Shown here piece by piece: positions 825 to 25,975 of a stretch of 64,000 bases of DNA. This DNA comes from Alloalcanivorax dieselolei B5 (lineage in GTDB: Bacteria; Pseudomonadota; Gammaproteobacteria; Pseudomonadales; Alcanivoracaceae). The notes below the pieces were generated by a model. It saw only the letters and a program-made list of their open reading frames with translations. It was not told the DNA's origin and searched no databases. Made by a program: the position numbers and the translations under genes. Position 1 is the first letter of the stretch; the number at the start of each line of letters is the position of its first letter. Location: positions 4,669,001 to 4,733,000 of the forward strand of contig NC_018691.1 in NCBI RefSeq assembly GCF_000300005.1, read 5' to 3'.

Positions 825-841
825 CGTCCGAAGCGACGATT
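825..841 (+). promoter_or_regulatory. Palindrome site S1 (TCGTC-N6-GACGA type), thiolase promoter
   Basis: The sequence reads CGTCC-GAAGC-GACGATT. The left arm is CCGTC rather than TCGTC; the right arm GACGA is exact. It lies between the SDR stop and the thiolase start, 84-100 bp upstream of the latter. It is one of nine related copies in the first 26 kb, all intergenic. The binding protein is not shown by sequence. Confidence 0.72.
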
Positions 842-858
842 TTCCCGCCATTGCCGGA

Positions 859-1641
859 TCACCGCGGCGCCATGCGGATGGCGCCGTCCAGGCGCACGCT
901 TTCGCCGTTGAAGTAGCCATTGACGATCATGGTTTCCGCCAGTTGGGCGAATTCATCCGGACTGCCCAGCCGCTTCGGGAACGGCACCGAGGCCGACAGG
1001 GACTGTTTCACGTTTTCCGGCAAACGGGCCAGCAGCGGGGTTTCGAAGATACCCGGCATGATGGTGTTGACACGGATGCCCTCGCTCATCAGGTCACGGG
1101 CCATGGGCAGCGTCATGCCCACCAGGGCGGCCTTCGAGGCGGAGTAGGCGGTCTGCCCGATCTGGCCATCCTGAGCGGCCACCGAGGCGGTGTTGATCAT
1201 CACCCCACGCTCGCCGTGCTCCAGCGGATCCAGGGACAGCATGCCCTTGGCCGCCTTGGCGGAGCAGCGGAAGGAGCCAACCAGGTTGATCTGCACAATG
1301 CGATTGAACTGATCGATCGGATAATGATTGGTGGTGCCGTCCTTTTTGTCCCGGCCAGCGGTCTTGGCGGAGCCTCCGATGCCGGCACAGTTCACCAGGA
1401 TGCGCTCCTGGCCGATGGCGGCACGGGCCTTTTCGAAGCCTTGATCCACGGAGGCATCATCGGTGACGTCCACTTTGCAGAACACGCCACCCAGCTCGGC
1501 CGCCAGGGCTTCACCCTGCTCTTCATTGACGTCGAACAGCGCCACTCGCACCCCGTGGGCGGCCAGCCGCCGGGCGGTGGCCGCTCCCAGGCCGGAAGCC
1601 CCACCGGTAATCACTGCGCTCACGGAAGAATCCAGTTTCAT
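859..1641 (-). CDS. SDR, 3-hydroxyacyl-CoA dehydrogenase type II-like
   Basis: This 260-residue classical short-chain dehydrogenase probably oxidises 3-hydroxyacyl-CoA to 3-ketoacyl-CoA with NAD+, directly before the thiolase step. The nucleotide-binding motif TGGASGLG is at residues 12-19, NCAG follows near 84, and the catalytic set is Ser153, Tyr166 and Lys170 (YSASK). An Asp closes the second beta strand (ALFDVNE), which favours NAD over NADP. The overall pattern resembles the HSD10/type II 3-hydroxyacyl-CoA dehydrogenase group. The start at 1641 is chosen because AAGGA precedes it; a longer reading upstream has no family similarity. The substrate is inferred from family and neighbours. 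Confidence 0.88.
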   Translation of the reverse strand: MKLDSSVSAVITGGASGLGAATARRLAAHGVRVALFDVNEEQGEALAAELGGVFCKVDVTDDASVDQGFEKARAAIGQERILVNCAGIGGSAKTAGRDKKDGTTNHYPIDQFNRIVQINLVGSFRCSAKAAKGMLSLDPLEHGERGVMINTASVAAQDGQIGQTAYSASKAALVGMTLPMARDLMSEGIRVNTIMPGIFETPLLARLPENVKQSLSASVPFPKRLGSPDEFAQLAETMIVNGYFNGESVRLDGAIRMAPR

Positions 1642-2140
1642 AGGAAATCCTTCAATTAACTCATAAAGGGATGACAGCGGCGCTGGGGCGGCTCCGAGAA
1701 CACTGCATCGCAATGAGCACTGAAATTCCAGGAAGTATCCAGGTTCTGACGGTGTACGTTCGTTCTCTTTTAATGCCACGGTGAGACCGCGCCGCTGCCT
1801 GCCTGCTTAGGCTCTAAAAAGGCTAGGAGAGTGCGCGGATACTGGATATCGTCTAAATGGACGAAACAGTGCAAGCCCTTTGATATTTATGGAATAAACA
1901 GAAACAAGGCCCTGGATTTCTCGTCTGATCCCTGGCGAAAACTGCCGGTTCCGTTGGCAAAACCTCGCCACCTCCCTACAAGTCACCGCACCGGCTTGAA
2001 CATAAGCCCCCACGGCTGTAGTTTTCAGGATACCGTTTGGTAGGTTCGGGAATTGGCGCCTGCATTTTGCCCTGGCGTAAGGCCATAACAACAAGAACCG
2101 ATGGTTGCATCGGCTCGGTTCACCCCTGAGGTAGGCTTCC
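1642..2140. promoter_or_regulatory. Divergent intergenic region between SDR and LuxR regulator
   Basis: About 500 bp separate the two divergent genes. The only clear element is palindrome S2 (1847-1863). An open frame on the minus strand (1807-2142) has no recognisable protein features and would cover the promoter, so I do not call it. No hairpin terminator is needed or seen. The long spacing leaves room for two separate promoters. Confidence 0.5.
1847..1863 (-). promoter_or_regulatory. Palindrome site S2, SDR/regulator divergent region
   Basis: Read on the minus strand it is CGTCC-ATTTA-GACGATA, with both 5-bp arms (TCGTC, GACGA) intact when flanks are included. It is about 207 bp upstream of the SDR start and 278 bp upstream of the LuxR start. 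It is the only copy oriented opposite to the rest, judged by the flanking bases. It could serve autoregulation of the LuxR gene. Confidence 0.66.
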
Positions 2141-4873
2141 ATGAAGACGTCGAGCTATCTGCTTTCCACGAGGACGCTGCTCAACAGCAAGCTGAGCCCG
2201 CCCACGTCGCATTCTTCACAGGTTACCCGCACCCGCATCCGTGACTCCGCGGTGGGGGCCAGCGCCGCCAAGCTGGTGTTGTTCCAGGCGCCGGCGGGCT
2301 TCGGTAAATCCACCCTGATGGCGCAATGCCTGGAACGCTTTGAATCCGAGGGCGTGGCCACCGCCTGGTTGACCCTGGACGACGCCGACAACGACATCCA
2401 ACGCTTCCTCTCCTGCGTCGAGGCGGCCATCTCCTCGATGATGGAACTGCCCCAGGAACCGGAACGCGGCCTGCATTCCAGCAAGTCGCCCGGCGACACC
2501 GCGCTGGAACTGGTCACCAGCCTGGCCGCCGAACACGCCGCCTTTGCCCTGTTCCTGGATGATTTCGAACGCATCCACGAACCCACCGTGCTGGGACTGG
2601 TGCGTGAAATCATCGATCACCTGCCGCACAACTGCCGTCTGGTGATCGGCTCGCGCAGCGTGCCGGAGCTGGGCCTGGGGCGGCTGCGGGCGCGTGGGAG
2701 GCTACTGGAAATCGACTCCGAACTGATGCGTTTCTCCAAGGAGGAAACCCATCAGTTTCTCAATGGCTGCCGCCAGCTGTCGCTGTCGCTGGACGATCTC
2801 GGCCATATCCACGACAAAACCGAAGGCTGGGTGGCGGCGCTCTGGCTCGCTTCCCTGGCATTGGAGCACCACCCGGCGCCGGCGGAGTTCATTGCCAGCT
2901 TCTCCGGCGAAAATCGCGCGGTGGCCCATTATCTGGCCGAGGATGTGCTCTCCCAGCAACCGCCGCGGGTGAGGAATTTCCTGCTGCGCACCAGCATCCT
3001 GCGCTACATGAGCGTGCCGCTGTGCAATGCCCTGTTGCCGGACACCGACAGCGAATCGCTGATCAACCTGCTCAACGAGGCCAATATTTTCCTGGTGCCG
3101 ATCGAAGGGCAGGAGCGGCTGTACCGCTACCACAGCCTGTTCGCCGATTTCCTGCGCGCCCAGTTGGAGCAGCACCTGCCCCAGGAAGTCCCCTATCTGC
3201 ACCGCGCCGCCTCGCACTGGTTCGAGGATCAGCACCGCCCGGTACCGGCCATCGATCATGCCCTGGAGGGCAAGGATTACCGCCGCGCTCTGGAGTTACT
3301 GTCGGTGCACGGTGAGGAGCTGCTGGCCCAGGGGCGCATGCGTCTGTTGGCGCGCTGGTTCGAGACCATCCCGGCGGAGCGTCTGGAAGACTATCCTCTG
3401 CTACAGGCGATTCATGTCTGGGCGCTGTGTTTCACCGCCAGCCCGCGCAAGGCCATGGATCTGCTGCAGCGCACCGGCCTGGAAAACTCCCGCGATCCGC
3501 AAATCCGTCCCCATGTGCTGGCGCTGCGTCCTTCGATCCTGGCGATCATGGACGACTTCGAGGAAGCCTACCGGATCGGCCGCGAAGCCCTGAAGCAACT
3601 GCCCAACGGCGACCCCTTCGCCGACACCGCGCTGGTCAATACCGTGGCCAATGCCTATTCGGTGATGGGCGAGTACCAGGAAGCCCGGCAGCTGCTGGAC
3701 GGCGCCCGCGATGTCCAGGGGGTCTACGAAAGCGCCTTCAACGCCATGTATTCCGAGTCGGTGGAAGGCATCATCGACTTGCAGGAAGGCCGCCAGCGCC
3801 AGGCCGCCGCCCGCTTCCGTCTCGCGGTGGGTATGACCCGGGCGCGCGGCGCCTTTTCCTTCAGCGGCACCACCGGTAATGCCTGGGCCGGCGTACTGCA
3901 TGCCAGTGCCGTCTACGAGTCCAATGACCTGCCGCAAGCGGCGCGGCTGCTCAATGTCTATGTACCGCTGGTGCGCGACATCGGCCTGCCGGATCACATG
4001 ATCCTTGGCGATGTCATGCTCTCCCGCATCGCCTTCCACGAGGGCGATCTGGATAAGGCGTTCCAGATTCTGGCCTCCCTGGAACTGACCGGACACCGGC
4101 GCCAACAGCCCCGGGTGGTTGCCACGGCGCGCCTGGAGCGGGCTCACCTGATGCTGCTGCAGGGTGACGAAGAGGCCTCCCTGGCCGAGCTGGACCGGGC
4201 CGATGATCCGCAAGTATGGGACCGGGTGAAGAAACTGCGGCTGCTGGCCAACGACCTGGAAACCGCGCAAATCGGCCGGTTACGCTGGGAGAGTCTGGTC
4301 GGCGACGCCGGCCGGGCGGTGGAGAAGCTGCGCGAAGCGATCGCGGAAGCGGTGGACGATTCCCGCTACCGCCGCGCCTGCAAGCTGCGTCTGTTCCTGG
4401 CGGTGGCGCTGCAGCGCAAGGGGCAGTTGCGCGGCGCCCTGGAAGAAATGGAGAAAGTGCTCAAGGAAGCCTGCCGCGAAGGTTACTTCCGCCTGATCCT
4501 GGATGAAGGCCCGCGAGTGGGCGCGCTGGTGGTGCATCTGCAATCCGATACCCTTGAGCGGAAACAGGATCGCCGTGAGCCGCTGTTCGCCGAATACCTG
4601 CAACAGTTGCTGCAAGGGTTCGGCCCCACTGTGTTCAATGCTTATCCACCGGTGGAAGACGCCCAGGCGCTGCTCTTGCCCGAACCGCTGACGCGCAAGG
4701 AAATCCGCGTGCTCAAGCTGCTCGCGGAAGGGCACTCCAACAGCGCCATGGCGGAAAAGCTGTTTGTCTCCGACAGCACCATCCGTACCCATTTACGCAA
4801 CATCAACGCCAAGCTCAACGCCAGCAACCGCACCGAAGCGGTGGCCATTGCCCGCAAGGCCGGAGTGGTTTAG
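2141..4873 (+). CDS. MalT/AlkS-like ATP-dependent LuxR-family transcriptional regulator
   Basis: This 910-residue protein has the architecture of large ATP-binding LuxR (LAL) regulators such as MalT and AlkS. A P-loop APAGFGKST lies at residues 50-58, and an acidic Walker B-like stretch (ALFLDDFER) near 140. A long helical/TPR-like middle follows, and a C-terminal LuxR helix-turn-helix occupies about 845-905 (LTRKEIRVLKLLAEG ... STIRTHLRNINAKL). Such proteins bind an effector and ATP, oligomerise and activate transcription. It is the only large regulator inside the catabolic island and is divergent from the SDR, so it is the best candidate to bind the nine TCGTC-N6-GACGA sites. AlkS controls alkane genes in pseudomonads; an equivalent role here is inference. 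The inducer is unknown. Confidence 0.9.
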   Translation: MKTSSYLLSTRTLLNSKLSPPTSHSSQVTRTRIRDSAVGASAAKLVLFQAPAGFGKSTLMAQCLERFESEGVATAWLTLDDADNDIQRFLSCVEAAISSMMELPQEPERGLHSSKSPGDTALELVTSLAAEHAAFALFLDDFERIHEPTVLGLVREIIDHLPHNCRLVIGSRSVPELGLGRLRARGRLLEIDSELMRFSKEETHQFLNGCRQLSLSLDDLGHIHDKTEGWVAALWLASLALEHHPAPAEFIASFSGENRAVAHYLAEDVLSQQPPRVRNFLLRTSILRYMSVPLCNALLPDTDSESLINLLNEANIFLVPIEGQERLYRYHSLFADFLRAQLEQHLPQEVPYLHRAASHWFEDQHRPVPAIDHALEGKDYRRALELLSVHGEELLAQGRMRLLARWFETIPAERLEDYPLLQAIHVWALCFTASPRKAMDLLQRTGLENSRDPQIRPHVLALRPSILAIMDDFEEAYRIGREALKQLPNGDPFADTALVNTVANAYSVMGEYQEARQLLDGARDVQGVYESAFNAMYSESVEGIIDLQEGRQRQAAARFRLAVGMTRARGAFSFSGTTGNAWAGVLHASAVYESNDLPQAARLLNVYVPLVRDIGLPDHMILGDVMLSRIAFHEGDLDKAFQILASLELTGHRRQQPRVVATARLERAHLMLLQGDEEASLAELDRADDPQVWDRVKKLRLLANDLETAQIGRLRWESLVGDAGRAVEKLREAIAEAVDDSRYRRACKLRLFLAVALQRKGQLRGALEEMEKVLKEACREGYFRLILDEGPRVGALVVHLQSDTLERKQDRREPLFAEYLQQLLQGFGPTVFNAYPPVEDAQALLLPEPLTRKEIRVLKLLAEGHSNSAMAEKLFVSDSTIRTHLRNINAKLNASNRTEAVAIARKAGVV

Positions 4874-4889
4874 AACCACCAAACGCCGG

Positions 4890-6176
4890 CTAGCGCAGGA
4901 TCAGGAAAGCGCGGAAATCATTCACGTTGGTATGGGTGGGGCCAGTAACCACCAGGCCGTCCAGCGCCTGGAAGAACCCGTAGGCATCGTGGTCGGCCAG
5001 CGCCTGCCGGCCATCCACCTGACGCGCCCGGGCCTCGGCCATCAGACCCGGGTGGTAGACCGCGCCGGCGTTATCCTCGGTACCGTCGATGCCATCGGTG
5101 TCACAGGCCAGGGCATGAATACCCGGCACATCGTCAAGACTCAACGCCGCCCCGAGCAGAAACTCCGCATTGCGGCCGCCTCGCCCCTTGCCGGTCACGG
5201 TCACCGTGGTTTCGCCGCCCGATAACAGCACCAGAGGCAATCGCAAACCGCCAAAACCACCGCCACGCCGGGCCTGATGGGCCAACTCCGCGTGCAAGGC
5301 ACCAAGGTCCCGGGCCTCGCCTTCGAGACGGTCGGACAACACCGCCGCCACCACTCCCTGCTCCCGCGCCCGTCGGGCAGCGGCACGCAGGCTCAGCGCC
5401 GGCGTGGCGATGCAGTTGAGACGGGTGGACTGAAAACAGGGCGCGCCGGGTTTCGGGGTTTCCGACGCCGGGTCCTTCAGATGACGGCGCACCGCCTCCG
5501 GCACATCGATACCGTAGCGTTCCAGCACCGCCAGCGCCTGATCCGACGTGGAAGCGTCCGGCACCGTGGGGCCGGACGCGATGACGCTGGGGTCATCGCC
5601 GGGCACATCGGAAATCACCAGCGTGTGGGATTCGGCGGGCGCCAGCGCCTCGGCCAGGCGCCCGCCCTTGATCGCCGACAGGTGCTTGCGCACCGTATTG
5701 ATCTCATCGATGGCGGCGCCGCAGCGTAACAGCTCACCGGTGAGCGCCTGTTTGCAGGCCAGGGACAGGCCTTCAGCGGGCAGACTCAGTAGTGACGAGC
5801 CACCGCCGGAGATCAGGCACAGCACCCGGTCTGCGGGCCCCGCCGCCCGGGCCAGTTCCAGAATACGCCGGGCGGCCCGTTCTCCGGCCTCGTCCGGTAC
5901 CGGATGCGCGGCTTCCACCACTTCGATATGGCGGGTGGGCAGACCATGACCGTAACGGGTCACCACCAGGCCGGACAGCGGGCCGGACCAATGCGCTTCC
6001 ACCGCCCGCGCCATGGCCGCCGCCGCTTTACCGGCACCGAGCACCAGCAACGGACCGCCGTCGTCTTCCGGCAACCAGGGCGGAACACAGTGTTCCGGTT
6101 GCGCGGCAAGGACCGCCGCGTCGAACAATTCACGCAGAAGGCGCTGGGGCGCCTCCGGATCCTGCACTAGGTCCAC
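4890..6176 (-). CDS. Glycerate 2-kinase (MOFRL family)
   Basis: The product matches the DUF4147/MOFRL glycerate kinase family, which phosphorylates D-glycerate at O2 in glyoxylate/hydroxypyruvate or tartronate metabolism. Visible features are a Gly-rich LGAGKAAAAMA near residue 47, LISGGGSSLL near 122-131, a DVPGDDPSVIASGPT stretch, and the C-terminal LSGGETTVTVTGKGRGGRNAEF-type MOFRL core. I choose a GTG start at 6176 because GAGG sits 8 nt before it. The frame stays open to a TTG at 6209 but that extension is made of the tandem repeat described separately. It is the last gene of the racemase-SDR-crotonase operon, an unexpected place for a glycerate kinase. It converges on the LuxR gene. Confidence 0.85.
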   Translation of the reverse strand: MDLVQDPEAPQRLLRELFDAAVLAAQPEHCVPPWLPEDDGGPLLVLGAGKAAAAMARAVEAHWSGPLSGLVVTRYGHGLPTRHIEVVEAAHPVPDEAGERAARRILELARAAGPADRVLCLISGGGSSLLSLPAEGLSLACKQALTGELLRCGAAIDEINTVRKHLSAIKGGRLAEALAPAESHTLVISDVPGDDPSVIASGPTVPDASTSDQALAVLERYGIDVPEAVRRHLKDPASETPKPGAPCFQSTRLNCIATPALSLRAAARRAREQGVVAAVLSDRLEGEARDLGALHAELAHQARRGGGFGGLRLPLVLLSGGETTVTVTGKGRGGRNAEFLLGAALSLDDVPGIHALACDTDGIDGTEDNAGAVYHPGLMAEARARQVDGRQALADHDAYGFFQALDGLVVTGPTHTNVNDFRAFLILR

Positions 6177-6186
6177 CCGTATCACC

Positions 6187-6210
6187 TCACGGGACAATTC
6201 ACGGGACAAT
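6187..6210. repeat. Perfect 12-bp tandem duplication before glycerate kinase
   Basis: The unit TCACGGGACAAT occurs twice back to back (6187-6198 and 6199-6210). The first copy also contains the putative ribosome-binding site of the glycerate kinase gene on the minus strand. It is probably a small local duplication; a regulatory role is not shown. Confidence 0.6.
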
Positions 6211-6223
6211 CACGAAAGAACGC

Positions 6224-7051
6224 TCAATGCTCCGGATCACGGAACACCGGCGCGCGCTTCTCCATTCTGGCATAAACCGCTTCGACCTGGTTGGGCTGGC
6301 CGATGATCGCATCCTGTTCCACTGATTCCGCCAGCAGCACCCGGGCCGCCTGCTCCCGCGGCATGGCGGATTGATTGAGCAGGCGCTTCATGGCGCGCAC
6401 CGCATGGGGGTTGCGACCGGCGATGTCCCGGGCCATGGCCAGGGCTTCCTCGCGGGGAGATTCACATACCCGCGTCACCAGTCCCAGGTCCGCCGCCTCT
6501 TCACCATCGAAAATACGGCCGGAATAGCACAGCTCGCGCACCCGATCCGGCCGTACCAGCTCACTGATCAACACCATGCCGGCCATATCCGGCACCAGCC
6601 CCCACTGAATCTCCATCACCGACCAGCGGGAATCGGCACGGGCCAGACGCAGGTCCGCGCCCAGGGCGACTTGCAGGCCACCGCCAAAGGCGACACCGTG
6701 GACCGCGGCAATCACCGGAACCGGCACATCGCGCCAGACCATGGCGGCGTACTGGGCCTGATTGCTGTCGCCGTGGGTGCGTTCGGCCAGGGTCTTACGG
6801 CCGCCGACACCAGCGCCGCTGCCTTGCGCCATGCGCGAGAAATTTTCCATGTCCAGCCCGGCGCAAAAGCTCTTGCCCTCACCGCTGAGCACCACGGCGC
6901 GCAGCCCCTGCCAAGCGGAAAGCCGCTCCGCCATCCCGGCCAGAGCGGCAAACAGCTCGCTGCTCAGCGCATTGTGCTTGTCCGGCCGGTTGAGGCGAAC
7001 CTCCACCACCCCGGGCGTCTCGGTTTCGATCACACGGATCACGTCACTCAT
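6224..7051 (-). CDS. Crotonase / enoyl-CoA hydratase family protein
   Basis: This 275-residue crotonase-fold protein carries the oxyanion-hole signatures SFCAGLDM and HGVAFGGGLQ and the typical helix GLVPDMAGM. The position of the first catalytic glutamate of rat enoyl-CoA hydratase (GGGCE) is Gln here (GGGLQ), and the second position is Asp (LVPD). Plain 2-enoyl-CoA hydratase chemistry is therefore uncertain; an isomerase or lyase is possible. The start has GAGGAG 6 nt upstream. The gene sits 15 bp behind the dienoyl-reductase-like SDR in the racemase operon. Confidence 0.85.
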   Translation of the reverse strand: MSDVIRVIETETPGVVEVRLNRPDKHNALSSELFAALAGMAERLSAWQGLRAVVLSGEGKSFCAGLDMENFSRMAQGSGAGVGGRKTLAERTHGDSNQAQYAAMVWRDVPVPVIAAVHGVAFGGGLQVALGADLRLARADSRWSVMEIQWGLVPDMAGMVLISELVRPDRVRELCYSGRIFDGEEAADLGLVTRVCESPREEALAMARDIAGRNPHAVRAMKRLLNQSAMPREQAARVLLAESVEQDAIIGQPNQVEAVYARMEKRAPVFRDPEH

Positions 7052-7066
7052 GGTCTCTCCTCGGAG

Positions 7067-7951
7067 CTAGGACCGCTGCTGCTTGTCCTTTTCGTTCTGG
7101 CGGGTAATGGCGTCCCGGGCCTGTTGCCATTCGTCATCGCCCCAGGCCGCGAGTTCGGCAAAGTTACCACCGTCCGCCTGATAACGCCCGCCGTCGATGG
7201 CGATGGTCTGGCCGTTCACATACTCGGAACCCGGCGCCAGCAGATAGGCCGCCAGGTTGGCCAACTCCGGCATCTTGCCCGGACGTCCCATGGGACACCC
7301 CCGCACCTGCATGCCGCCGAGCGGCCCCAACCGCTTACTCATGCCCTCGGTGGGGAACAGGCCCGGCGCGATGGCGTTGAAGCGCAACCCCCGGTTACCC
7401 CATTCCACCGCCAGCGACTGAGTCATGGCGTGAAGGCCGGCCTTGGACATGGCGGAAGGCACCACGAACGGGGAACCATTCCATACCCAGGTGGTAAGGA
7501 TGGACACTACCGACGCACTGACGCCTTCCGCCAGCCAGCGCTTGCCACAGGCCTGGGTGACCAGGAAGCTGCCACGAAACACAATGCTGGAAATGGCATC
7601 GAAGCCGCGGCTGGACAGGTCCTCGGTGCGGCTGATGAAGTTGCCGGCGGCATTGTTGAGCAATCCGGTCAGGGCGCCACCGTCCTTCCAGATGGTATCG
7701 ACCATCGCCTCGATGGCGTCGGCGTCACGAATATCACAGGTAACCGGCACCACGGTGCCGCCATGGGCGTCCATCAAGGCTTTCGCGGTCTCTTCCAGGA
7801 CCGCGCCACGGCGGCCGCAGATATAGACGCGGGCACCGAGGATCAGCAAGGCCTCGGCCATTTCCCGGCCCAGGCCGGTACCCCCGCCGGTCACCAGAAT
7901 GCGGTGGTCCTTGAGCAGATCGGGGCGAAACATCAAATCACTGGCTTGCAC
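7067..7951 (-). CDS. SDR resembling 2,4-dienoyl-CoA reductase (DECR type)
   Basis: This 294-residue SDR has TGGGTGLG at residues 21-28 and NNAAGNF near 99. At the usual YxxxK position it reads PSAMSK, so Tyr is replaced by Ser166 while Lys170 is kept. Mammalian DECR-type 2,4-dienoyl-CoA reductases show the same VVPSASAKAG pattern followed by a LAAEWG helix, and the match here (VVPSAMSKAG ... LAVEWG) is close. The expected reaction is NADPH-dependent reduction of 2,4-dienoyl-CoA made from unsaturated substrates. The start is a GTG with GGAGGAAA upstream. It lies in one operon with the CoA-transferase-like racemase upstream and the crotonase downstream. Confidence 0.85.
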   Translation of the reverse strand: MQASDLMFRPDLLKDHRILVTGGGTGLGREMAEALLILGARVYICGRRGAVLEETAKALMDAHGGTVVPVTCDIRDADAIEAMVDTIWKDGGALTGLLNNAAGNFISRTEDLSSRGFDAISSIVFRGSFLVTQACGKRWLAEGVSASVVSILTTWVWNGSPFVVPSAMSKAGLHAMTQSLAVEWGNRGLRFNAIAPGLFPTEGMSKRLGPLGGMQVRGCPMGRPGKMPELANLAAYLLAPGSEYVNGQTIAIDGGRYQADGGNFAELAAWGDDEWQQARDAITRQNEKDKQQRS

Positions 7952-7988
7952 GGTTATTTCCTCCGGATCAGGAACTCACTCATCGCTG

Positions 7989-9119
7989 TCAAAGAATGCC
8001 GCTTTCCCGCAGGCCGGCCTGACGGGTCTCGTCGATGCCCCAGTCCGACAACACTGCTTCACTGTCCTGCCCACGGGCGGAAGGGGCCCGTGGCGCCGGT
8101 GGCGGAGTACGGCTGAAACGCGGCGCCGGCGCCGGCTGTACCACGCCGTCCACGGTGATAAAGGTGTGGCGGGCGCGGTTGTGCGGATGTTGCGGCGCTT
8201 CTTCCCAGTCCAGCACCGGCGCGAAACAGGCATCGCTGCCTTCCAACCTTTCGCACCAGTAATCCCGGGGCTGGCTGGCGAACAGCCGGGTCAGTTTGGT
8301 TTTCAGAGACGGCCATCGCTGGCGATCGTTTTGCGCTTCGAATTCCGGATCGTCGATTTCCGCGCGCTTCAACAACTCGGCATAGAACTGCGGCTCGATG
8401 GCGCCCACCGCCACGAACTTACCGTCGGCGCACTGATAGGTGTCGTAGTAAGGCGCGGCGCCATCCAGCAGGTTGGCGCTGCGTTCGTTACGCCAGGCGC
8501 CGGCGGCTTTCATGCCGTACATCATCGCCGAGAGCAGCGCGGCGCCATCGGTCATGGCGGCATCCACCACCTGCCCCTGACCGGAAGCGCGGGATTCGTA
8601 GACGGCGGCGAGGATACCGAAGGCGAGCATCATGGCACCGCCACCAAAATCACCGACATAGTTGAGCGGCGGCGGCGGGCCGTCAGCACGACCGATGCCA
8701 TGCAGCGCACCGGTCAGTGCGATGTAATTCAGGTCGTGGCCGGCGGCGCTGGAGAGCGGACCGAACTGGCCCCACCCGGTCATGCGGCCGAATACCAGGG
8801 AAGGCCGCCGGCGCAGGCAGACTTCCGGCCCCAGCCCCATTTTTTCCATCACGCCGGGGCGGAACCCCTCGATCAGCACGTCGGCCTGTTCCACCAGGTC
8901 CAGTACCAGATCGGCGGCACCGGGCTTCTTCAGATCCAGCGCCAGGGAGCGCCGCCCCCGGGCCAGCACATCAAACCGGGCGGACCCGGGCTCGCCGCGG
9001 CCGGGGCGGTCGATACGGATCACCTCCGCCCCCATGTCCGCGAACATCATCGAGCAAAACGGGCCCGGCCCGATGCCCACCATCTCGATGATCTTCAAAC
9101 CTTTCAGGGGTCCCGACAT
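7989..9119 (-). CDS. CaiB/BaiF family III CoA-transferase, alpha-methylacyl-CoA racemase-like
   Basis: The 376-residue protein belongs to the type III CoA-transferase fold. It has [17 protein letters not shown] at the start, then GADVIRID-like [10 protein letters not shown], and the racemase pair His128 (AGHDLNY) and Asp157 (YVGDFGGG). This favours alpha-methylacyl-CoA racemase (AMACR/Mcr), which epimerises the 2-methyl centre so that branched chains can enter beta-oxidation, over CoA transfer. The start at 9119 follows GGAGGA by 6 nt; the reading frame continues upstream but through the promoter. It is the first gene of a four-gene operon ending with glycerate kinase, and palindrome S3 lies 69-85 bp upstream. 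Confidence 0.88.
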
Positions 9120-9187
9120 GCTGTCCTCCTCACCAACCGCCATCATCAAAGGACATTCATGGTGCGGCCGGTTGAACAGGCGCGCAT

Positions 9188-9204
9188 CGTCGAAAAGGAC
9201 GACT
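9188..9204 (+). promoter_or_regulatory. Palindrome site S3, racemase operon promoter
   Basis: It reads CGTCG-AAAAG-GACGACT; with its flank both arms TCGTC and GACGA are exact, but the base after GACGA is C instead of the T found in the other copies. It is 69-85 bp upstream of the racemase start, a typical activator distance. Confidence 0.65.
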
Positions 9205-10131: not shown

Positions 10132-10204
10132 GTGGTGTGACTCCAACCGGAGAAAGGGAGAGAGGAACGATGCCGGCCGTGCCGACATCGTCACCGGCGG
10201 CGAA

Positions 10205-18626: not shown

Positions 18627-19151
18627 CTATCCACTTTCCTGAACATCACCGTTTCCGGCTTGGCGGCCGGCCAGTGCCTCCCACCACAGCCGCAGCATCT
18701 CCAGCAGCATCAGCGCGAACGCCAGCGGCATCATCAACATCACCGGCCATACCGGCCACAGCCGGGTACCGATCTGCATCTGCCGAGCGCTTTGCGCGGC
18801 ATCCCAGGCAAACCGCCACAGGTACCAGAGCAATACGGCAAAGATCACGATCTCCACGGTCAGCACCAACACCGCCACCGCTCGCGCCCATCCCGGCGAC
18901 ATCCTGTCGGCCAGAATATCGAAGCGGGGAAAGGTGCCCTGCCGATGCCCCAGCGGCACTGCCCAGAACACCAACAAAGGGAACAGCATACGCTCGATCA
19001 TATTGTAGCCACCGGGAATCAGGTCCATTCCCAACAGATAGCGGCCCAGCACCCCGATTACCGTGATCATCATGATCAGGAACAGACAGAGTCCCGCGCC
19101 CACCGAGGCCAGTCCGCCCTCCAATCGATCAATGGCTTTCCAAAACGCCAT
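18627..19151 (-). CDS. dctQ: TRAP transporter small permease (DctQ type)
   Basis: This 174-residue protein with about four membrane helices matches DctQ subunits (CLFLIMMITVIGVLGRYLLGMDLIPGG ... EMLRLWWEAL). With DctM it forms the inner-membrane part of a sodium-driven solute-binding-protein-dependent transporter. AGGAGG lies 7 nt before the ATG at 19151; the open frame further upstream overlaps dctM and is not used. It is the last gene of the ligase-dctP-dctM-dctQ operon, an atypical order because dctQ usually precedes dctM. Confidence 0.85.
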   Translation of the reverse strand: MAFWKAIDRLEGGLASVGAGLCLFLIMMITVIGVLGRYLLGMDLIPGGYNMIERMLFPLLVFWAVPLGHRQGTFPRFDILADRMSPGWARAVAVLVLTVEIVIFAVLLWYLWRFAWDAAQSARQMQIGTRLWPVWPVMLMMPLAFALMLLEMLRLWWEALAGRQAGNGDVQESG

Positions 19152-19174
19152 GGCGACTCCTCCTCTCTCGCGGC

Positions 19175-20485
19175 TCAGCGAATTTGCTCCGGCAGCCAGG
19201 TAATCAGAGCGGGATAGCTGATCAGCAGAACGGTCAGCACCACACCGGCCACCAGTGCGAACAGACTGGCGGAACGAAACACCCGCGCCACCGGATAGTT
19301 GCCGGCGCTGGCGGCGGCGAAAGTGGCCAGCCCCACCGGTGGCGTGAGCAGTCCCAGTGCGATCATCAGGGAGGCCATCACCCCGAACCACAGCAGGTCG
19401 ATTCCGGCGCTTTGCAGCAGCGGCAGGATGATCGGTACCAGCAACACGATCACCGCCGCCGATTCCAGAAACATGCCGCCGAGGAAGAACACCGCCATCA
19501 GAATCGCCGCCACCACATTGGGGTGTCCCAGTATCGGTTCCATCAGCGACAGCAGCTCATTGGGCAAACGGGAAAAGGTCAGGAAGCGGGCGAAAATCTT
19601 GGCACCGAGCACCAACATCATCAGCGTGGCGGTGACCTTCACCGACTCCGCCAACGCCTCGAACAATCCGCGCAGATTGACCCGCCTCATCAGCATCATG
19701 CCGGCCATGGCAGTGAAGGCGCCGAGGGCGCCGGCCTCCGCCACCGTGACCACACCACCGTAGATGCCGCCAAACACGATCAACATCAGCGCCACCACGA
19801 ACAGAAAGGCGGTCATGCTGCGACGGGCCTCCCCGGAGGGCGGGGCTTGTTCCGGCGCCTGACCGTCCACCGCGCCCTCGCGCAATTCACCAAACAAGCG
19901 CAGGCAGACGATATAGATCGCGATACACAGCAGCCCCGGCCCGATCGCGCCGATGAACAGATGGCCGATGGGCACCGATGCCAGCGAACCATAGATGATC
20001 ATGATCAGACTCGGCGGAATGATCGCCGACAGAGAGCCGGCCACCGCCGACAGGCTCAACGAGAAGCGCCGGGTGTAACCCAGTTTTTCCAGCTCCGGCG
20101 ACGCCAGTGATGCCAGGGAGGCGGAGCTGGCGGCGCCGGAACCCGACACCGCGCCCAGCAACGAGCCAGTGACGATGGTCGCCACCCCCAATGGGAAGCG
20201 CCGATAACCGGACAACCGGTGCCCCACGGCGAACAGGTCCCGTATCACGCCGCCACGCAACAACAGCTGCGCCATCAACAGATACAGCGGCACGATGGAC
20301 AGGGAGTAAATCGACGCGGTGTAGAACGTATCGGAACCAAGAATCCCACCGAGCACGTCCACACCGACCACCAGCACGATGCCCAACATGCCGGCGCCAA
20401 ACAGCACCGTGGCCACGTTCTGGCCGAGCACCAGGAAAGCGGCGAACCAGGCCAGCACCATCCAGATAATCTGCGTATTCGACAT
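19175..20485 (-). CDS. dctM: TRAP transporter large permease (DctM type)
   Basis: The 436-residue protein has about twelve hydrophobic helices and DctM hallmarks: GSLLGAVSGSGAASSASL (first inverted repeat), IIPPSLIMIIYGSLA, and the C-terminal LGLLTPPVGLATFAAASAGN. It carries the solute across the inner membrane using the sodium gradient. It begins 9 bp after the dctP stop. Linked dctP, dctQ and a CoA ligase suggest that the substrate is an organic acid fed to CoA activation. Confidence 0.94.
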   Translation of the reverse strand: MSNTQIIWMVLAWFAAFLVLGQNVATVLFGAGMLGIVLVVGVDVLGGILGSDTFYTASIYSLSIVPLYLLMAQLLLRGGVIRDLFAVGHRLSGYRRFPLGVATIVTGSLLGAVSGSGAASSASLASLASPELEKLGYTRRFSLSLSAVAGSLSAIIPPSLIMIIYGSLASVPIGHLFIGAIGPGLLCIAIYIVCLRLFGELREGAVDGQAPEQAPPSGEARRSMTAFLFVVALMLIVFGGIYGGVVTVAEAGALGAFTAMAGMMLMRRVNLRGLFEALAESVKVTATLMMLVLGAKIFARFLTFSRLPNELLSLMEPILGHPNVVAAILMAVFFLGGMFLESAAVIVLLVPIILPLLQSAGIDLLWFGVMASLMIALGLLTPPVGLATFAAASAGNYPVARVFRSASLFALVAGVVLTVLLISYPALITWLPEQIR

Positions 20486-20494
20486 GGCGCCGGC

Positions 20495-21574
20495 TCAGTC
20501 CTGTTCGAGGTAGTCCGCGGCACTCGGCGGAATGGTCCCGCCCTGCTCCTCAATCAACTCCGCCCACAGGCGCGCGGTGGCCTTGCCCGGATGCCCGGCC
20601 TCCTCCATCTGTTCGATCCAGCGAATCCAGGTACGGCTGGCGGCATCCTGCAAATGCCCGGCCATGTCGTCGGACAGCTCGTTCAGTTCCACGAAGGTGG
20701 CGCCCGCCTTCTGGGTCCTGGCCCGCACCGCCTCTTCCTGCTGGTCAATATGAGCGGCGTTATCCAGGGCTACCTGACGGGCCACCCGGTCCCAGGTGGC
20801 GCGCTGTTGTTCAGTCAACCCGTTCCAGGTCTCATCGGTGACCGCCAGGTAGCTTTCCCAGTGCCCCATGGAAATGCCGGTGATGGAGTACTTGAGCAGG
20901 TCCTCGAACGAGTACGATGGCCAATCCGCCACCGACAGGATGGTGCCAATCACCGTCTTGCGGGACAACGCTTCATAGGAGTCGGCGCTGGTCATGGTCA
21001 CCGGCGTCGCGCCCAGTTCCTGCAGCAGTATGGTGTGCAGCGCGGAGCCGGCGCGGATCGGCGCGCCTTCCAGGTCGTCCGGAGAATCCAGCACCCTGCC
21101 TATGGTGGATAACGAATAAGCGGAAGTGGCTCCCAGCGGCCAGCCGCGCAACCCCTTGCTGCCCAATTCATACTGGTAAAAAGTCTTGCCGTCGGCCAGT
21201 TCCTGGTCGGAGTCCATCAGTGTCTGAAGCGCCTTGGTGACCATCACCGAAGTGGTACTCAGTGTTGGCAGCTGGGTCACGTCGGACAGCGGGAAACTGC
21301 CTTCGTGGTAGGGTGCCAGCAGCGGCGCGGCCACGGAAATGGTGCCGGTCTTCAGCGCATCCCATTCCCGCCCCGGTGTCACCAGGGAGCCGGAGTAGAA
21401 ACGCACGAAGGAAAGGTCCGTTTCCTTTTCCATGGCGTCCACGAACGGGTCCATGTGCTGCCCGACCCAGAAATGCTGCTGCCCCATGCCCGCGGAAATC
21501 CTCAAAGGCGCGGCGGCGGACACCGCCGCCATCACCGTGAGTGTCATAACCAGAAGCAAACGTACCATGCGCAT
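20495..21574 (-). CDS. dctP: TRAP transporter solute-binding protein (DctP type)
   Basis: This 359-residue periplasmic binding protein has an N-terminal signal peptide (RLLLVMTLTVMAAVSAAA). The DctP region ... GAPIRAGSALHTILLQELGATPVTM contains the Arg that usually pairs with a ligand carboxylate. It delivers the ligand to DctQM. GGAGG precedes the start. It follows the ligase gene, and no separate promoter motif is visible between them. The ligand is unknown; a carboxylate is favoured by the conserved Arg and by context. Confidence 0.9.
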   Translation of the reverse strand: MRMVRLLLVMTLTVMAAVSAAAPLRISAGMGQQHFWVGQHMDPFVDAMEKETDLSFVRFYSGSLVTPGREWDALKTGTISVAAPLLAPYHEGSFPLSDVTQLPTLSTTSVMVTKALQTLMDSDQELADGKTFYQYELGSKGLRGWPLGATSAYSLSTIGRVLDSPDDLEGAPIRAGSALHTILLQELGATPVTMTSADSYEALSRKTVIGTILSVADWPSYSFEDLLKYSITGISMGHWESYLAVTDETWNGLTEQQRATWDRVARQVALDNAAHIDQQEEAVRARTQKAGATFVELNELSDDMAGHLQDAASRTWIRWIEQMEEAGHPGKATARLWAELIEEQGGTIPPSAADYLEQD

Positions 21575-21668
21575 AAAGATGTCCTCCCCGGCAACGCAAC
21601 CGGCTTATCCGTGCTGATGTTGGGAGCGCAGGAACCATCCCGCGGCGGTTGCGGTGAACCGCCGCGAC

Positions 21669-23324
21669 CTAGCCGGACGCTGTTTGAGTTTCGCTGATAC
21701 GGAGCCGCAACCGCGCCTTCAACACCTTGCCATTGGCGTTGCGAGGCAGCGGCTCTTCAAGAAAATCGATGAAATCAGGGATTTTGTAATCGGCCAGATG
21801 TTCGGCGCAGTAGGCCTTGAGACGGGCGGCGCTGATCCCCGGGTCGTCGCGGACCACGAACAGTTGGATTTTCTCTCCCAGCACCGGATCAGGCCGGGCC
21901 ACCGCGGCACACTCGATCACGCCGTCGAGTCCCTGCAGCAACCCTTCCAGTTCGGCGCTGTAAATGTTGTAGCCGGCACGGTTGATCATGTCCTTCTTGC
22001 GGTCCAGCACACGCACGTAACCGTTTTCGTCCACCGAGCCGATGTCCCCGGAACGCCAGTAGCCGCCGGCAAATTCGGCACGGTCCGCCTCCGCGTTGTT
22101 CCAATATCCCGGCGTCACCATGGGGCCGGCGATCCACAACTCGCCGGCCTCGCCCGGTGGCCGTTCGCGACCATTGGAGTCCATCACCTTGATATCACCG
22201 CAGGTGACCACCCGGCCGACACTATCGGCGTGCCGGGCGGCCTCACCCAACGGCAGGATGGTCGCCGGTGAACAGGTCTCGGTGGCCCCGTAGGCGTTGA
22301 CCAGTTGCAGGTTCGGCAACCGTTCCGCCAATCGCTCGATGGTGGCTTCCGGCATGGGCGCGCCGCCGAAACCGCCGAGACGCCAGGCGGACAGGTCATA
22401 GTGATCAAAGTCCGCCCGCAGCAGGCAAAGGTTATACATGGCGGGCACCATCACCGTGTGCGTGATCCGCTCCCGATCGGCCAGAGCCAGGAAGCGCTGG
22501 GCATCGAATTCCCGCTGAATCACCACGCAGCCGCCCACATGGAACAGGGTCAGAATCACCGCCACCACACCGGTGACATGACTTGCCGGCACCACCAGCA
22601 ACGAGCGCTCGTTTTCACCCAGCGCCATGGACTGCTCAAAGTGCAGCAGGCTGTGCAGCAGATTCAGGTGGGTCAGGCGCACCCCCTTGGGGCGTCCGGT
22701 GGTGCCCGAGGTGTACAGCAGGATGGCGGTATCATCCTCCTGAGGGGTGGGCAGAGGCAGGCGCGGGGCGCCTTCCTTCAGCAGGGCCTCGAACGGTTCG
22801 GCGCCGGCGACCTCGCCACCCACCGCGAAGCGGAACGCCAGCGCCGGCAAGGTTTCCCGACCGCTGACTTTATCGCCCTGAACATCGTCATGAATCAGCA
22901 CCTTGGCCTGGCAGTGATAAAGGATATAGGCCAGCCCGGATTTGGATTCGCGGATATTGACCGGCACCACGATGGCACCGAGCCGCAGCGCCCCCAGCAG
23001 CGCCAGCACGAACTCGTTGCGGTTGGCCATCAGCAAGGCGATCCGGTCACCGGCCGCCACACCGCGCCGCGCCAACTGAGCCGCGATATGTTGCATGCGC
23101 CGGTTGGCCTCCCGGTAGGTCAGCCGCTGGCCATCACAAACCAGGCACTCATTGTCCGGCGCCCGACTCACGGCGCGACGAAAGGAGGCCAACAGGTTGG
23201 CCGGTCTGGCGGCGTAGCAACGCACCAGGCGATCGCCAAAGTGATACTCATGGCGAACAGCGAAGGGGGCCTTATCACCCATACAGGTCACCCATATAGA
23301 TCTCTCCCGAACTGCCGGCTCCAT
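21669..23324 (-). CDS. AMP-forming acyl-CoA synthetase/ligase
   Basis: The 551-residue adenylate-forming enzyme has the P-loop YTSGTTGRPKG at 204-214, the A5 motif NAYGATET, YWRSGDIGSVDENGYVRVLDRKKDMI, and the C-terminal catalytic Lys in PRNANGK. It activates a carboxylic acid to acyl-CoA via an acyl-adenylate. It resembles medium/long-chain and cyclohexanecarboxylate-type ligases, and the substrate cannot be fixed from sequence. The ATG at 23324 has GAGAAG nearby; a second in-frame ATG at 23282 is possible. It heads the TRAP operon, with palindrome S7 48-64 bp upstream. Confidence 0.9.
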   Translation of the reverse strand: MEPAVRERSIWVTCMGDKAPFAVRHEYHFGDRLVRCYAARPANLLASFRRAVSRAPDNECLVCDGQRLTYREANRRMQHIAAQLARRGVAAGDRIALLMANRNEFVLALLGALRLGAIVVPVNIRESKSGLAYILYHCQAKVLIHDDVQGDKVSGRETLPALAFRFAVGGEVAGAEPFEALLKEGAPRLPLPTPQEDDTAILLYTSGTTGRPKGVRLTHLNLLHSLLHFEQSMALGENERSLLVVPASHVTGVVAVILTLFHVGGCVVIQREFDAQRFLALADRERITHTVMVPAMYNLCLLRADFDHYDLSAWRLGGFGGAPMPEATIERLAERLPNLQLVNAYGATETCSPATILPLGEAARHADSVGRVVTCGDIKVMDSNGRERPPGEAGELWIAGPMVTPGYWNNAEADRAEFAGGYWRSGDIGSVDENGYVRVLDRKKDMINRAGYNIYSAELEGLLQGLDGVIECAAVARPDPVLGEKIQLFVVRDDPGISAARLKAYCAEHLADYKIPDFIDFLEEPLPRNANGKVLKARLRLRISETQTASG

Positions 23325-23371
23325 GTTGTTCTTCTCATTCCATTGTTAGGGGGTGGCCCGGGAAGACTCGT

Positions 23372-23388
23372 CGTCCGAAGCGACGATT
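23372..23388 (+). promoter_or_regulatory. Palindrome site S7, ligase/TRAP operon promoter
   Basis: It reads CGTCC-GAAGC-GACGATT, the same 17 bases as S1, with both arms exact when the flanking T is included. It is 48-64 bp upstream of the ligase start. Confidence 0.75.
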
Positions 23389-23872
23389 TGCCCATTGGGC
23401 GGGGAATCTATCCTCTTTCCGGAGGTCTTCTTAAAGTGTGTGCGCTTACCCACCAAACTCTTTGTCTCATTTTGAAATAATTCCTATCGGTATGGACGAT
23501 TTTTTATTCCGTCTAATATGTTAGAGGAGCTCATTACTGCTCAATTTGCGATCGATTTCACTCCCGAATGACATATTTGGAAATTATTTTCGTCGCCCCC
23601 TCCTCTTCTCATTTCACTTTTCCCATGAACGCATCCAGGTAGTGAACACCCGCTCGCGGCAAAGGCCGGCACCGCCGACAAATGGCGAAAAACATTTCAG
23701 CTCATCGACTTCCGCATGCAACCCATTGTTTTAAAAGAATTATTCACATGGTCATACGACTTAAGGAGGGGTTCGCGAAGCCCTTGAAAGGTGCTTACCA
23801 TCGGTATATCGCCCTTCTTCACGCGCGGGGGAAAAGCGCGAAGACAAGGGGCTTCGGGCGCTCCAGGCATTT

Positions 23873-23889
23873 CGTCGAAACCGACGATT
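23873..23889 (+). promoter_or_regulatory. Palindrome site S8, first porin promoter
   Basis: It reads CGTCG-AAACC-GACGATT and continues with GTTACC. S9 has the same extension, so the two porin promoters share an operator of at least 22 bp. It is 228-244 bp upstream of the first porin start. Confidence 0.74.
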
Positions 23890-24011
23890 GTTACCATTCG
23901 GTCACAGAGACAACCATAACGTCGACAGGGAGTACGCCCGTTCCCCATTAAGGCCCGCGAAACGGGTATACTTGCACGTCTTCTAGGGTGCCTCCGGGAT
24001 GGAGGTCCTCT

Positions 24012-24045
24012 CTCGGGAGAAACTACCTTCGGAAGGGCGAAGGGA
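24012..24045 (+). promoter_or_regulatory. Conserved porin leader element, copy 1
   Basis: The segment contains CTCGGGAGAAACTACC, then TTCGGAAGGGCGAAGGGA, and recurs with few changes at 26083-26118 before the second porin. It can form a short CCTT-CGG-AAGG hairpin. It lies between the palindrome and the start codon, so it may be in the mRNA leader. Its function is unknown. Confidence 0.5.
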
Positions 24046-24116
24046 GGCATAGGGGCATAATTCAAAACAGCGGCCCCTTCTATCAATAAACTTCGAAGAA
24101 CACAGGACGAATAACA

Positions 24117-25496
24117 ATGGCACTTAAGTGGACCAGCAATCACGAAGGGGGTCAGGCTACTCCTGCCCGTTCCCAACTCCGTACCAGCATCAAAGCCGCC
24201 GCTATCGGCTCGGCCATCGGCCTCGGCACCCTGATGTCGGCTCCGGCCATGGCGCTGAAAACCGATTTCGGCATGGAATATCGTGCTACCGCCTTCGCGG
24301 CCAGCTCCGATGCCTTCGATACCGGTGCCGCCGGCACTTCCGAAACGGATACCGGTTTCGGCCATTTGATCCGCGTCAAAGCCAACTTCCTGGATGAAGA
24401 CACCGGCATCTCCGTCTACACCAGCGTGGAACTGGCTGGCGACCGCTGGACCGGTGATAACCGCGGCTATAACACCGCCAACTCACAAGGGTTCAATACC
24501 GGCAGCCGCGGCGACAATGTTCGCCTGGATCTCGGCTATGTGCAGATTCCGGTGGGCCACACCATCTTCCGCGTGGGCCGTCAGGCCACCAGCTACAACA
24601 ACTGCTTCCTGGTCTGTGACGACCGCCGTGACCGGCTCCTGATGATCCAGCCCCTGAACAAAACCACCTCCATGGTGCTGGGTTACGACCGCCGCTCCGA
24701 TACCACCCCATTCGCCAACCAGGACAACGGCGACATGGCTCTGCTGGGTGTCACTGGCAAACTGAGCGATAGCTGGAATGCCGGGCTGCTCTACGTGCAG
24801 TGGATGAACAACTACGACGGGGTCACCCCGCATCCGGGCGGCGGCGCAAATCCCTACGCACTCAACAACGTGACCCTGTTTTCCGGTTATGTGACAGGCG
24901 GTCTCGGCGATGCCGTGAAGGGTACCCTGGGCTTCAACTACTTCAGCAACGGTAACGTCGAAACCGCTGCGGACGATCAATACTTCACCGATCAGTCTCC
25001 GTCCGGCTATCTGCGCCTTGAGGGCGATGTCGGTGCCGTTGGCTGGGGCGTCCAATACGTCCTGTCCCGCGATGGCGGTCTGATTGCTCCCGGCTTCGAT
25101 ACCTATTCCAGCCTGATCAACAACAATCCGGACGCCACCCAGAGTGCCAACAGCATGTACACCATGGGCCGGACTCTGGGCCTCAAGGACATGGACGAGG
25201 ATCTGGTGATCGGTAAGCTGACCTGGAATGTCACCGACAAGTTCGCTGTTACCGGCGCCGTGGGCCAATTGTCCGTGGATACCGGCACCGTGGACGACGA
25301 CAGCATGGTCTACGATCTGCAGTTCGCCTATCAGGTCAACAAGGCGCTGCGCACCTGGTTGTCCGTGGGCATGCTGGAAAAAAACAAGGCTGGCTTGCTG
25401 GCCGGCAACGGCCTGGTTGGCTCTCTGGCGGGGATGAACACCTTCGCCGACGACGACGTGAAAGCCGCCAGCCTGAACATGACCGTGAACTTCTGA
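24117..25496 (+). CDS. Predicted outer-membrane beta-barrel (porin-like), paralog 1
   Basis: The 459-residue protein has an extended signal sequence ending about SAPAMA (residue 46). An alternating hydrophobic pattern follows, with many Tyr/Trp/Phe residues, and the terminal residue is Phe (NMTVNF), as for BAM-dependent barrels. A pair of cysteines (CFLVCDD) near 163-167 may form a disulphide. I cannot assign a named porin family. Very similar protein at 26234-27619 (same start, same cysteine loop, same end) shows a tandem duplication. Placement in the catabolic regulon suggests a channel for the hydrophobic or acid substrate of the pathway. Confidence 0.85.
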   Translation: MALKWTSNHEGGQATPARSQLRTSIKAAAIGSAIGLGTLMSAPAMALKTDFGMEYRATAFAASSDAFDTGAAGTSETDTGFGHLIRVKANFLDEDTGISVYTSVELAGDRWTGDNRGYNTANSQGFNTGSRGDNVRLDLGYVQIPVGHTIFRVGRQATSYNNCFLVCDDRRDRLLMIQPLNKTTSMVLGYDRRSDTTPFANQDNGDMALLGVTGKLSDSWNAGLLYVQWMNNYDGVTPHPGGGANPYALNNVTLFSGYVTGGLGDAVKGTLGFNYFSNGNVETAADDQYFTDQSPSGYLRLEGDVGAVGWGVQYVLSRDGGLIAPGFDTYSSLINNNPDATQSANSMYTMGRTLGLKDMDEDLVIGKLTWNVTDKFAVTGAVGQLSVDTGTVDDDSMVYDLQFAYQVNKALRTWLSVGMLEKNKAGLLAGNGLVGSLAGMNTFADDDVKAASLNMTVNF

Positions 25497-25523
25497 TTGT
25501 TTTCTGAATCAGTAACCCTCCGG

Positions 25524-25555
25524 AAAGGGGCGGCTCAAGCCGCCCCTTTTCTTTT
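25524..25555 (+). terminator. Rho-independent terminator after first porin
   Basis: An 11-bp perfect stem AAAGGGGCGGC / GCCGCCCCTTT with a TCAA loop is followed by TCTTTT. It begins 28 bp after the stop and separates the two porin transcripts. Confidence 0.9.
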
Positions 25556-25958
25556 GTCCGCTCCCCGTCCACGCTGATATTGCCCCGCCGACGATAACCA
25601 CGGAGGCTCTTCCGGCTACCGCCCATCTCTGCCGCCTCAGGACATCAGCACACGCCTCCGCGCCGATCCCCACACCTCTCAGCCGCTTTCCACGGGGAAT
25701 GCCCCGCTGTCAGCACACGATTCGTCCTCGCCGGGAAGAGCCAACATTTCCATTCCTGACCGCTCTCGAAACACCCTTCATCACGCCATGATTATTTAAT
25801 TCAACCAGGTTTATATATTTTCACATTTTCCCTTTTCATTTTTGTATTAATAGAACAACCGTCCCACACTTTAAATAATGATTTTATTAACCCGTAACTC
25901 AGCCTTTCTATCTCTATTTAAGATTAGAAACATTCCCAGCAGTATAAATTTCACATCT

Positions 25959-25975
25959 CGTCGGAAACGACGATT
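25959..25975 (+). promoter_or_regulatory. Palindrome site S9, second porin promoter
   Basis: It reads CGTCG-GAAAC-GACGATT followed by GTTACC, like S8. Both arms TCGTC and GACGA are exact. It lies 259-275 bp upstream of the second porin start. Confidence 0.75.

Follow-up and report, generated by a model that had tools for sequence, protein, structure and literature searches.

The window analysed here, a 64,000-nt stretch of the Alloalcanivorax dieselolei B5 genome (contig NC_018691.1, positions 4,669,001 to 4,733,000), carries a catabolic gene cluster with nine intergenic copies of the palindrome TCGTC-N6-GACGA. The palindrome is very probably an operator, bound by the MalT-like LAL regulator whose gene lies at 2141–4873, and this protein is predicted to act as an activator. 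The motif lies at a fixed position relative to predicted promoters and accompanies the regulator in Alloalcanivorax, in a second and a third family, in Cupriavidus and on a Paracoccaceae plasmid. Judged from sequence, this is a new regulator–operator pair of a known kind, that of the LAL activators. The original prediction had called the motif and regulon undescribed, and no description was found in the open-access literature among the matches listed; subscription papers were mostly outside that literature.

Predicted Operators and MalT-Like Regulator in the Window

All nine predicted copies of the palindrome were recovered, with starts shifted by 1–2 bases. Eight are exact, and one (824, with a CCGTC arm) has a single mismatch, as had been claimed. 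All nine are intergenic according to gene calls made with a codon-usage-based caller trained on the window genes. The predicted operators, each with its candidate −10 hexamer, the operons that are probable targets by strand and spacing, and the regulator gene are as follows (SDR, short-chain dehydrogenase/reductase; CoA, coenzyme A):

824–839, minus strand: operator with one mismatch, before the thiolase gene (1–741, minus strand); −10-like GAGAAT at 796–801
1849–1864, minus strand: operator before the SDR gene 859–1641; −10-like TAGCCT at 1820–1825
2141–4873, plus strand: MalT-like LAL regulator of 910 aa with a P-loop NTPase, MalT-type tetratricopeptide repeats (TPR) and a C-terminal LuxR/GerE helix-turn-helix (HTH) domain
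4890–9146, minus strand: probable target operon; glycerate kinase-like protein, crotonase, SDR, family III CoA-transferase
9187–9202, minus strand: operator before the family III CoA-transferase/racemase operon; −10-like CACCAT at 9159–9164
9256–13768, minus strand: probable target operon; thioesterase-like protein, crotonase, acyl-CoA dehydrogenase, DUF6285, APH-type kinase
13895–13910, minus strand: operator before the APH-type kinase/DUF6285/acyl-CoA dehydrogenase operon (13768 downwards); −10-like TAGAAT at 13866–13871
14758–14773, minus strand: operator serving the crotonase gene 13926–14693; −10-like GATCAT at 14729–14734
14775–14790, plus strand: operator serving the divergent SDR/crotonase/nitroreductase operon (14858 on); −10-like GAATCT at 14814–14819
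18627–23282, minus strand: probable target operon; TRAP components DctQ, DctM and DctP, acyl-CoA ligase
23371–23386, minus strand: operator before the acyl-CoA ligase/TRAP operon (23282 downwards); −10-like AACAAT at 23342–23347
23872–23887, plus strand: operator before the porin-like gene 24117–25496; −10-like AACCAT at 23912–23917 (weak)
25958–25973, plus strand: operator before the porin-like gene 26234–27619; −10-like AAAGAT at 25998–26003 (weak)
61760–61775, no strand assigned: exact motif copy inside a gene (60376–63465), CG centre

The thiolase family was assigned from the A. xenomutans gene occupying the same place. The racemase operon start was called at 9146, and an ATG at 9119 is equally likely. 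The neighbouring operators at 14758 and 14775 divide the work, the first suiting the crotonase promoter and the second the divergent SDR promoter. The two porin-like genes have no Pfam or NCBIfam match, and "porin" is a reading of their sequence. No copy had been noticed beyond 26 kb, which does not hold for the exact copy at 61760; this copy was judged to be a chance match outside the regulon.

The regulator matches the Pfam models TPR_MalT (3.4e-23) and GerE (1.2e-16), while NTPase models match it only under their cut-offs; the P-loop APAGFGKST is present. Its best sequence match in PDB is MalT (8bob, 3e-47, residues 13–420), and NarL structures are also among the matches. The protein thus has the P-loop NTPase, the MalT-type TPR and the LuxR HTH (about residues 840–910) of the LAL family and, by its domain content, is a LAL regulator, but it is not MalT by the NCBIfam cut-off (370.2 bits against the equivalog cut-off of 537). 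Its recognition helix reads SDSTIRTHLRNIN. The regulator is 98–99% identical in Alcanivorax sp. 24, A. xenomutans and A. balearicus, and 75% identical in A. mobilis.

The Proposed Operator Motif

The refined motif is TCGTCNN-WW-NNGACGA, a 16-bp dyad of 7-2-7 layout in which inverted heptamers flank an A/T pair. With at most one mismatch allowed, the window contains 15 matches, against a mean of 1.92 and a largest value of 7 in 100 dinucleotide shuffles. The six matches beyond the nine sites are the exact copy at 61760 and five copies with one mismatch. When all 1024 possible 5-bp arms were ranked at a gap of 6 bp, TCGTC came first in the window; when the gap is varied from 0 to 15, TCGTC arms occur in more than one window copy at gap 6 only.

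A search of the full genome (the 4.93-Mb contig) found 41 exact places, against 15 for the same pattern read backwards as a control. The A/T centre divides these copies sharply. Of the 18 A/T-centred copies, 16 are intergenic and two coding, whereas the 23 copies lacking this centre comprise three intergenic and 20 coding ones (Fisher p = 1e-6). The original remark that eight copies share one orientation and are followed by T or C stands for the forward strand, but it is the gene direction that counts. Read in that direction, the centre is TT in 21, AT in 11, AA in 7 and TA in 1 of the 40 site–gene pairs with a −10 element in place. At gathering thresholds, Rfam returned no RNA family in positions 1–30000 of the window.

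Promoter Geometry

Each of the nine window sites has a −10-like NANNNT hexamer beginning 22–24 nt downstream in one direction. The hexamer was in place in 9 of the 13 site–direction pairs tested, one per site, and 9.5% of window positions would satisfy this by chance. Across all loci, promoter geometry was assessed in the 56 of 71 site–gene pairs with a gene distance of 40–160 bp. NANNNT occurred at 22–24 nt in 40 of these pairs and the stricter TANNNT in 23; other three-offset windows held TANNNT 0.24 times on average and at most once. Counted by site, the −10-like element was in place at 37 of 44.

Because the −10-like hexamer begins 22–24 nt past the site, the site lies near −43, an activator position; its centre falls at about −43.5 if, as is usual, transcription is taken to start 12 nt past the first base of the −10 element. 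At the −35 position, none of the 40 promoters has five or more matches to TTGACA. The layout is that of an activator-dependent sigma-70 promoter, with a site centre at about −41 to −45, a −10 element and a weak −35. Since the site abuts the −35 position, the −10 element follows at 22–24 nt and the −35 is at best weak, the bound regulator most likely recruits RNA polymerase.

The strongest alternative is that the LuxR protein binds these sites and mainly represses, or acts in both ways. The site adjoins the −35 position, where RNA polymerase could be blocked, and some promoters have weak −35-like hexamers (four TTGACA matches in 7 of 40). Repression nevertheless appears unlikely, given the lack of any good −35 among the 40 promoters, the fixed −10 spacing found in activator-dependent promoters, and a MalT-type architecture that is an activator's (PMC4381067).

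The site at 1849 had been placed before an SDR/LuxR gene pair. It fits the SDR gene, but no −10 element is in place towards the LuxR gene, and autoregulation through this site is unsupported in the window. Some orthologues (in G484, G492, G495 and G022) have a site 78–231 bp upstream of the LuxR start.

Co-Occurrence of Motif and Regulator

The original prediction named a single dedicated regulator, most likely the LuxR protein at 2141, and the joint occurrence of motif and protein across genera, families and two classes supports this. In the first family (f1), five of 46 genomes have a LuxR orthologue (E ≤ 1e-60), and these contain 11, 11, 4, 11 and 11 sites matching the pattern TCGTCSRAANNGACGA. 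Among the 41 genomes without an orthologue, 39 have no match and two have one. Within the genus, sites are present in 5/5 genomes with the regulator and 0/8 without it.

In a class sample of 369 genomes, 61 match this pattern. The only other close homologue of the regulator in that sample (G152, 55%) is accompanied by three sites, none more than 15 kb from the regulator gene. The family to which G152 belongs (f110, 120 genomes; the second family) contains ten orthologues of 43–55% identity; every one of their genomes matches the pattern, compared with 26 of the 110 others. A site lies near the regulator in 8/10 with the narrow pattern and in 10/10 with the A/T-centred form. The A/T-centred exact sites near these regulators number 32 in 420 kb, 30 of them intergenic and two inside called genes; one-mismatch sites of these loci were listed where they lay outside genes and had an AA or TT centre. 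The HTH domain (40–53 of 65 residues in nine f110 orthologues) is better kept than the full protein (42–53%).

Orthologues met after the motif had been fixed (two copies in G885, one each in G710 and G836; 45–56%) have 15 intergenic sites, 14 of them with a −10 element. The two copies in G885 are 56% and 45% identical to the window protein, and several operator copies surround each. Homologues of 36–37% met later (G583 and G764) have no sites. On plasmids of Cupriavidus, three exact sites lie by the orthologue of C. metallidurans CH34 and four in C. necator N-1, where no gene start was called within 300 bp of them; the homologue of Cupriavidus sp. EM10 (36%) has no exact sites. An orthologue on a Paracoccaceae plasmid (39%) is accompanied by three exact sites, before an acyltransferase operon, a DctP gene and a ligase gene. 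The orthologue on plasmid pLA6_001 (Paracoccaceae) bears the annotation serine/threonine-protein kinase PknK, which is probably wrong.

The recognition helix separates loci with and without sites. Around each of the 21 loci with a T(V/I)RTH helix, one or more A/T-centred sites lie within 10 kb (53 in 414 kb in total), against none for the 15 loci with another readable helix (0 in 290 kb). The comparison covered 41 loci; the remaining five have no readable helix (G529 with sites; G146, G101, G054 and G459b without). As G000, G018, G028 and G029 are near-identical, the 21 correspond to about 18 independent loci. The weak homologues in G083, G238, G253 and G309, plasmid hits H2 and H6–H9, and the second places in H1–H3 were outside the site examination.

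A different regulator, co-inherited with the LuxR gene and of the TetR, GntR, AsnC or sigma-54 type, could in principle own the operator. Short-arm palindromes also suit TetR- and GntR-type dimers, and candidate genes occur beside several sites: an AsnC-type gene in the window (17322–17813), a sigma-54 activator beside genome position 736102, an AraC-type gene near 2383323, a GntR/aminotransferase gene around 529006 and a KstR-like gene in the Paracoccaceae locus. Yet among 27 window proteins (positions 1–31216), to which the search for shared regulators was confined, the LuxR protein alone is found at orthologue level (42–75%) in every one of the 11 compared neighbourhoods. The ligase has a match in each as well, though at 27–35% in ten of them. 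Site presence tracks the LuxR recognition helix, and the 7-2-7 layout with an A/T centre suits LuxR-type HTH domains. Ownership by another regulator is accordingly rated very improbable. The AsnC gene was ruled out because it is present in none of the other 11 neighbourhoods.

A dispersed repeat or an effect of base composition, to which the abundance of TCGTC/GACGA in GC-rich coding DNA and the coding location of most genome copies lacking an A/T centre might point, is rejected with near certainty on the fixed promoter position and the co-occurrence with the regulator (41 regulator-free relatives are nearly free of copies), besides the arm rank, the enrichment at gap 6 alone and the intergenic location of the A/T-centred copies.

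Several observations weigh against the proposed assignment. Hexamers with four TTGACA matches are a little more frequent at the −35 position than in shuffled flanks (5%), and the −35 may be weak rather than wholly absent. The −10 candidates of both porin sites are weak and lie at 24 nt. A −10 element is missing from place at 7 of 44 sites overall, 1 of 15 in the later orthologues and 1 of 3 in the Paracoccaceae locus. The first family offers few independent events, since around the regulator four of its five Alloalcanivorax genomes are almost the same; because of these close relatives, the test in that family is weak on its own. There is also a background of at least one match in 59 of 367 other class genomes and in the 26 f110 genomes given above. 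The protein searches scored the best 2–19 candidates per genome, and regulator absence is to be read within that depth. Finally, MalT acts through several boxes and as multimers, while here there is mostly one dyad per promoter.

Proposed Mechanism and Comparison with Known Systems

Two LuxR-type HTH domains would read the two TCGTCNN heptamers around the A/T pair, in a 16-bp NarL-like layout. From a site that stops just short of the −35 position, the bound regulator would most likely act as an activator by recruiting RNA polymerase. By analogy with MalT (PMC4381067), the TPR sensor would bind an inducer and the NTPase module would open. The same analogy suggests that the inducer is probably a carboxylic acid substrate or its CoA ester. 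The regulon would then supply carboxylic acid uptake (porin-like proteins and TRAP transporters), CoA activation (AMP-forming ligases) and degradation (thiolase, SDRs, crotonases, dehydrogenase and kinase).

MalT boxes are asymmetric, occur in sets and are cooperatively bound by multimers. The regulator shares with MalT of E. coli the P-loop NTPase, the TPR-type sensor and the C-terminal LuxR HTH, but its operator is mostly a single 16-bp dyad per promoter and its targets belong to acyl-CoA catabolism and acid uptake. MalT most likely recruits RNA polymerase through its DNA-binding domain (PMC4381067).

The regulator has an HTH domain of the same family (GerE) as NarL of E. coli, and the 7-2-7 layout with its A/T centre would suit a NarL/FixJ-type operator, in which inverted heptamers 2 bp apart are bound by dimers of LuxR-type HTH domains. 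The NarL heptamer is TACYYMT, unlike TCGTCNN here; moreover, NarL is a two-component response regulator, whereas here the HTH domain is carried on an NTPase/TPR sensor. Single or tandem 7-2-7 sites are described for NarL, one of them at −44.5, and a single site also just upstream of the −35 (PMC7419079).

In gene content, the operon at 11007–13768 (acyl-CoA dehydrogenase, DUF6285, APH-type kinase) is similar to the lva module for levulinic acid catabolism in Pseudomonas putida. The lva operon includes an acyl-CoA ligase, the phosphotransferase LvaA, the 12-kDa LvaB and LvaC, and LvaR is annotated as a sigma-54-dependent protein (PMC6692424). The likeness, with kinase, DUF6285 and dehydrogenase genes in one operon, is no more than suggestive of the lva 4-hydroxyacyl-CoA route (PMC6692424). 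In place of LvaR, the window has a MalT-like protein and a sigma-70-type −10 element. No alkane hydroxylase, the target class of the alkane regulator AlkS, was found among the typed target genes.

MalT-like regulators occur in many catabolic gene clusters; to our knowledge, few of them have a known binding site. If the proposed assignment is right, sequence alone would tie a MalT-like protein to its operator, and promoter layout and helix signature would predict which homologues share it. This would allow regulons to be read in Alloalcanivorax, Cupriavidus and related degraders, down to enzymes encoded away from the cluster, and the short promoter could be used for finding inducers and building acid-responsive sensors. 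The pair may, with about even chances, be a transferable control module for degrading one class of carboxylic acids. Carried in part by megaplasmids and plasmids, it would pass between Alphaproteobacteria and Gammaproteobacteria (as broadly defined in GTDB), and new operons would join it by acquiring the 16-bp site at −43. In that case, MalT-type signalling ATPases would have, beside the box sets of MalT, another way of recognising DNA, with activation from single NarL-like dyads.

Proposed Regulon and Probable Target Genes

The original prediction let the nine cluster copies define the regulon. The cluster copies stand, but the regulon is not confined to the cluster and extends genome-wide. 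Ten A/T-centred sites lie outside the window (genome coordinates, one per line):

103248, 736102, 1938137, 2191116, 2383323, 3909272 and 4666656: intergenic
529006: within the end of a GntR/aminotransferase-type gene; a gene with no assigned family follows at 128 bp
1119184: deep within a gene
1882424: intergenic, TA centre

The seven intergenic sites of the first line adjoin TRAP components, AMP-forming ligases, an APH-type kinase or, at 736102, a thiolase-like gene and a sigma-54 activator. A scatter of many unrelated copies through the genome, which would have spoken against a dedicated regulon, was not observed, because the outside copies mostly adjoin genes of the same kind as in the window. 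The thiolase-like gene by 736102 has a 93–97% homologue, besides its own genome, only in three near-identical regulator-bearing genomes; elsewhere a 33–34% paralogue (seven genomes) or none (two) is present. The comparison of this unlinked gene therefore says little, the close homologue being limited to near-identical regulator genomes.

The stretch directly before the window (4655000–4669100) contains another TRAP/ligase/acyl-CoA dehydrogenase cluster, with three AMP-ligase and two DctP genes; the operator at 4666656 lies in it between a ligase and a DctQ gene.

In the window, the genes by the sites encode a thiolase, SDRs, crotonases, a family III CoA-transferase, a thioesterase-like protein, an acyl-CoA dehydrogenase and DUF6285, together with an APH-type kinase, a nitroreductase, a ligase with a TRAP transporter and two porin-like proteins. 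Here and elsewhere, the typed genes beside sites are mostly acyl-CoA or acid-uptake genes. In the second family, 37 target genes were listed and 30 of those behind sites were typed; four spanning two stretches and three others were left out. They are mostly of the same kind, with other importers (branched-chain-type ABC binding proteins, TctC and DctP) and with ligases, acyl-CoA dehydrogenases, thiolases, crotonases, a Rieske oxygenase and a GMC oxidoreductase as enzymes. The exceptions are a histidine kinase gene (G424), a metallo-beta-lactamase-fold gene (G152) and a gene without a family (G495, 429 aa). The thiolase, one SDR and the CoA-transferase are 64–81% identical between the window and several second-family loci, and therefore a core pathway is common to these loci.

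In genome G529, the operator stands before genes for a Rieske ring-hydroxylating oxygenase, an AMP-ligase and a GMC oxidoreductase; the substrate there may therefore be cyclic.

The two porin-like genes of the window share a 31-nt leader repeat (24008–24038 and 26080–26110, 90% alike), and a 26-nt element lies just upstream of both starts (24081–24106 and 26199–26224). The leader repeat matches no Rfam family and folds slightly better than its shuffles (z −1.2 and −1.8). The leader core, which is conserved in the three closest relatives, has no other place in the genome when fewer than three mismatches are allowed.

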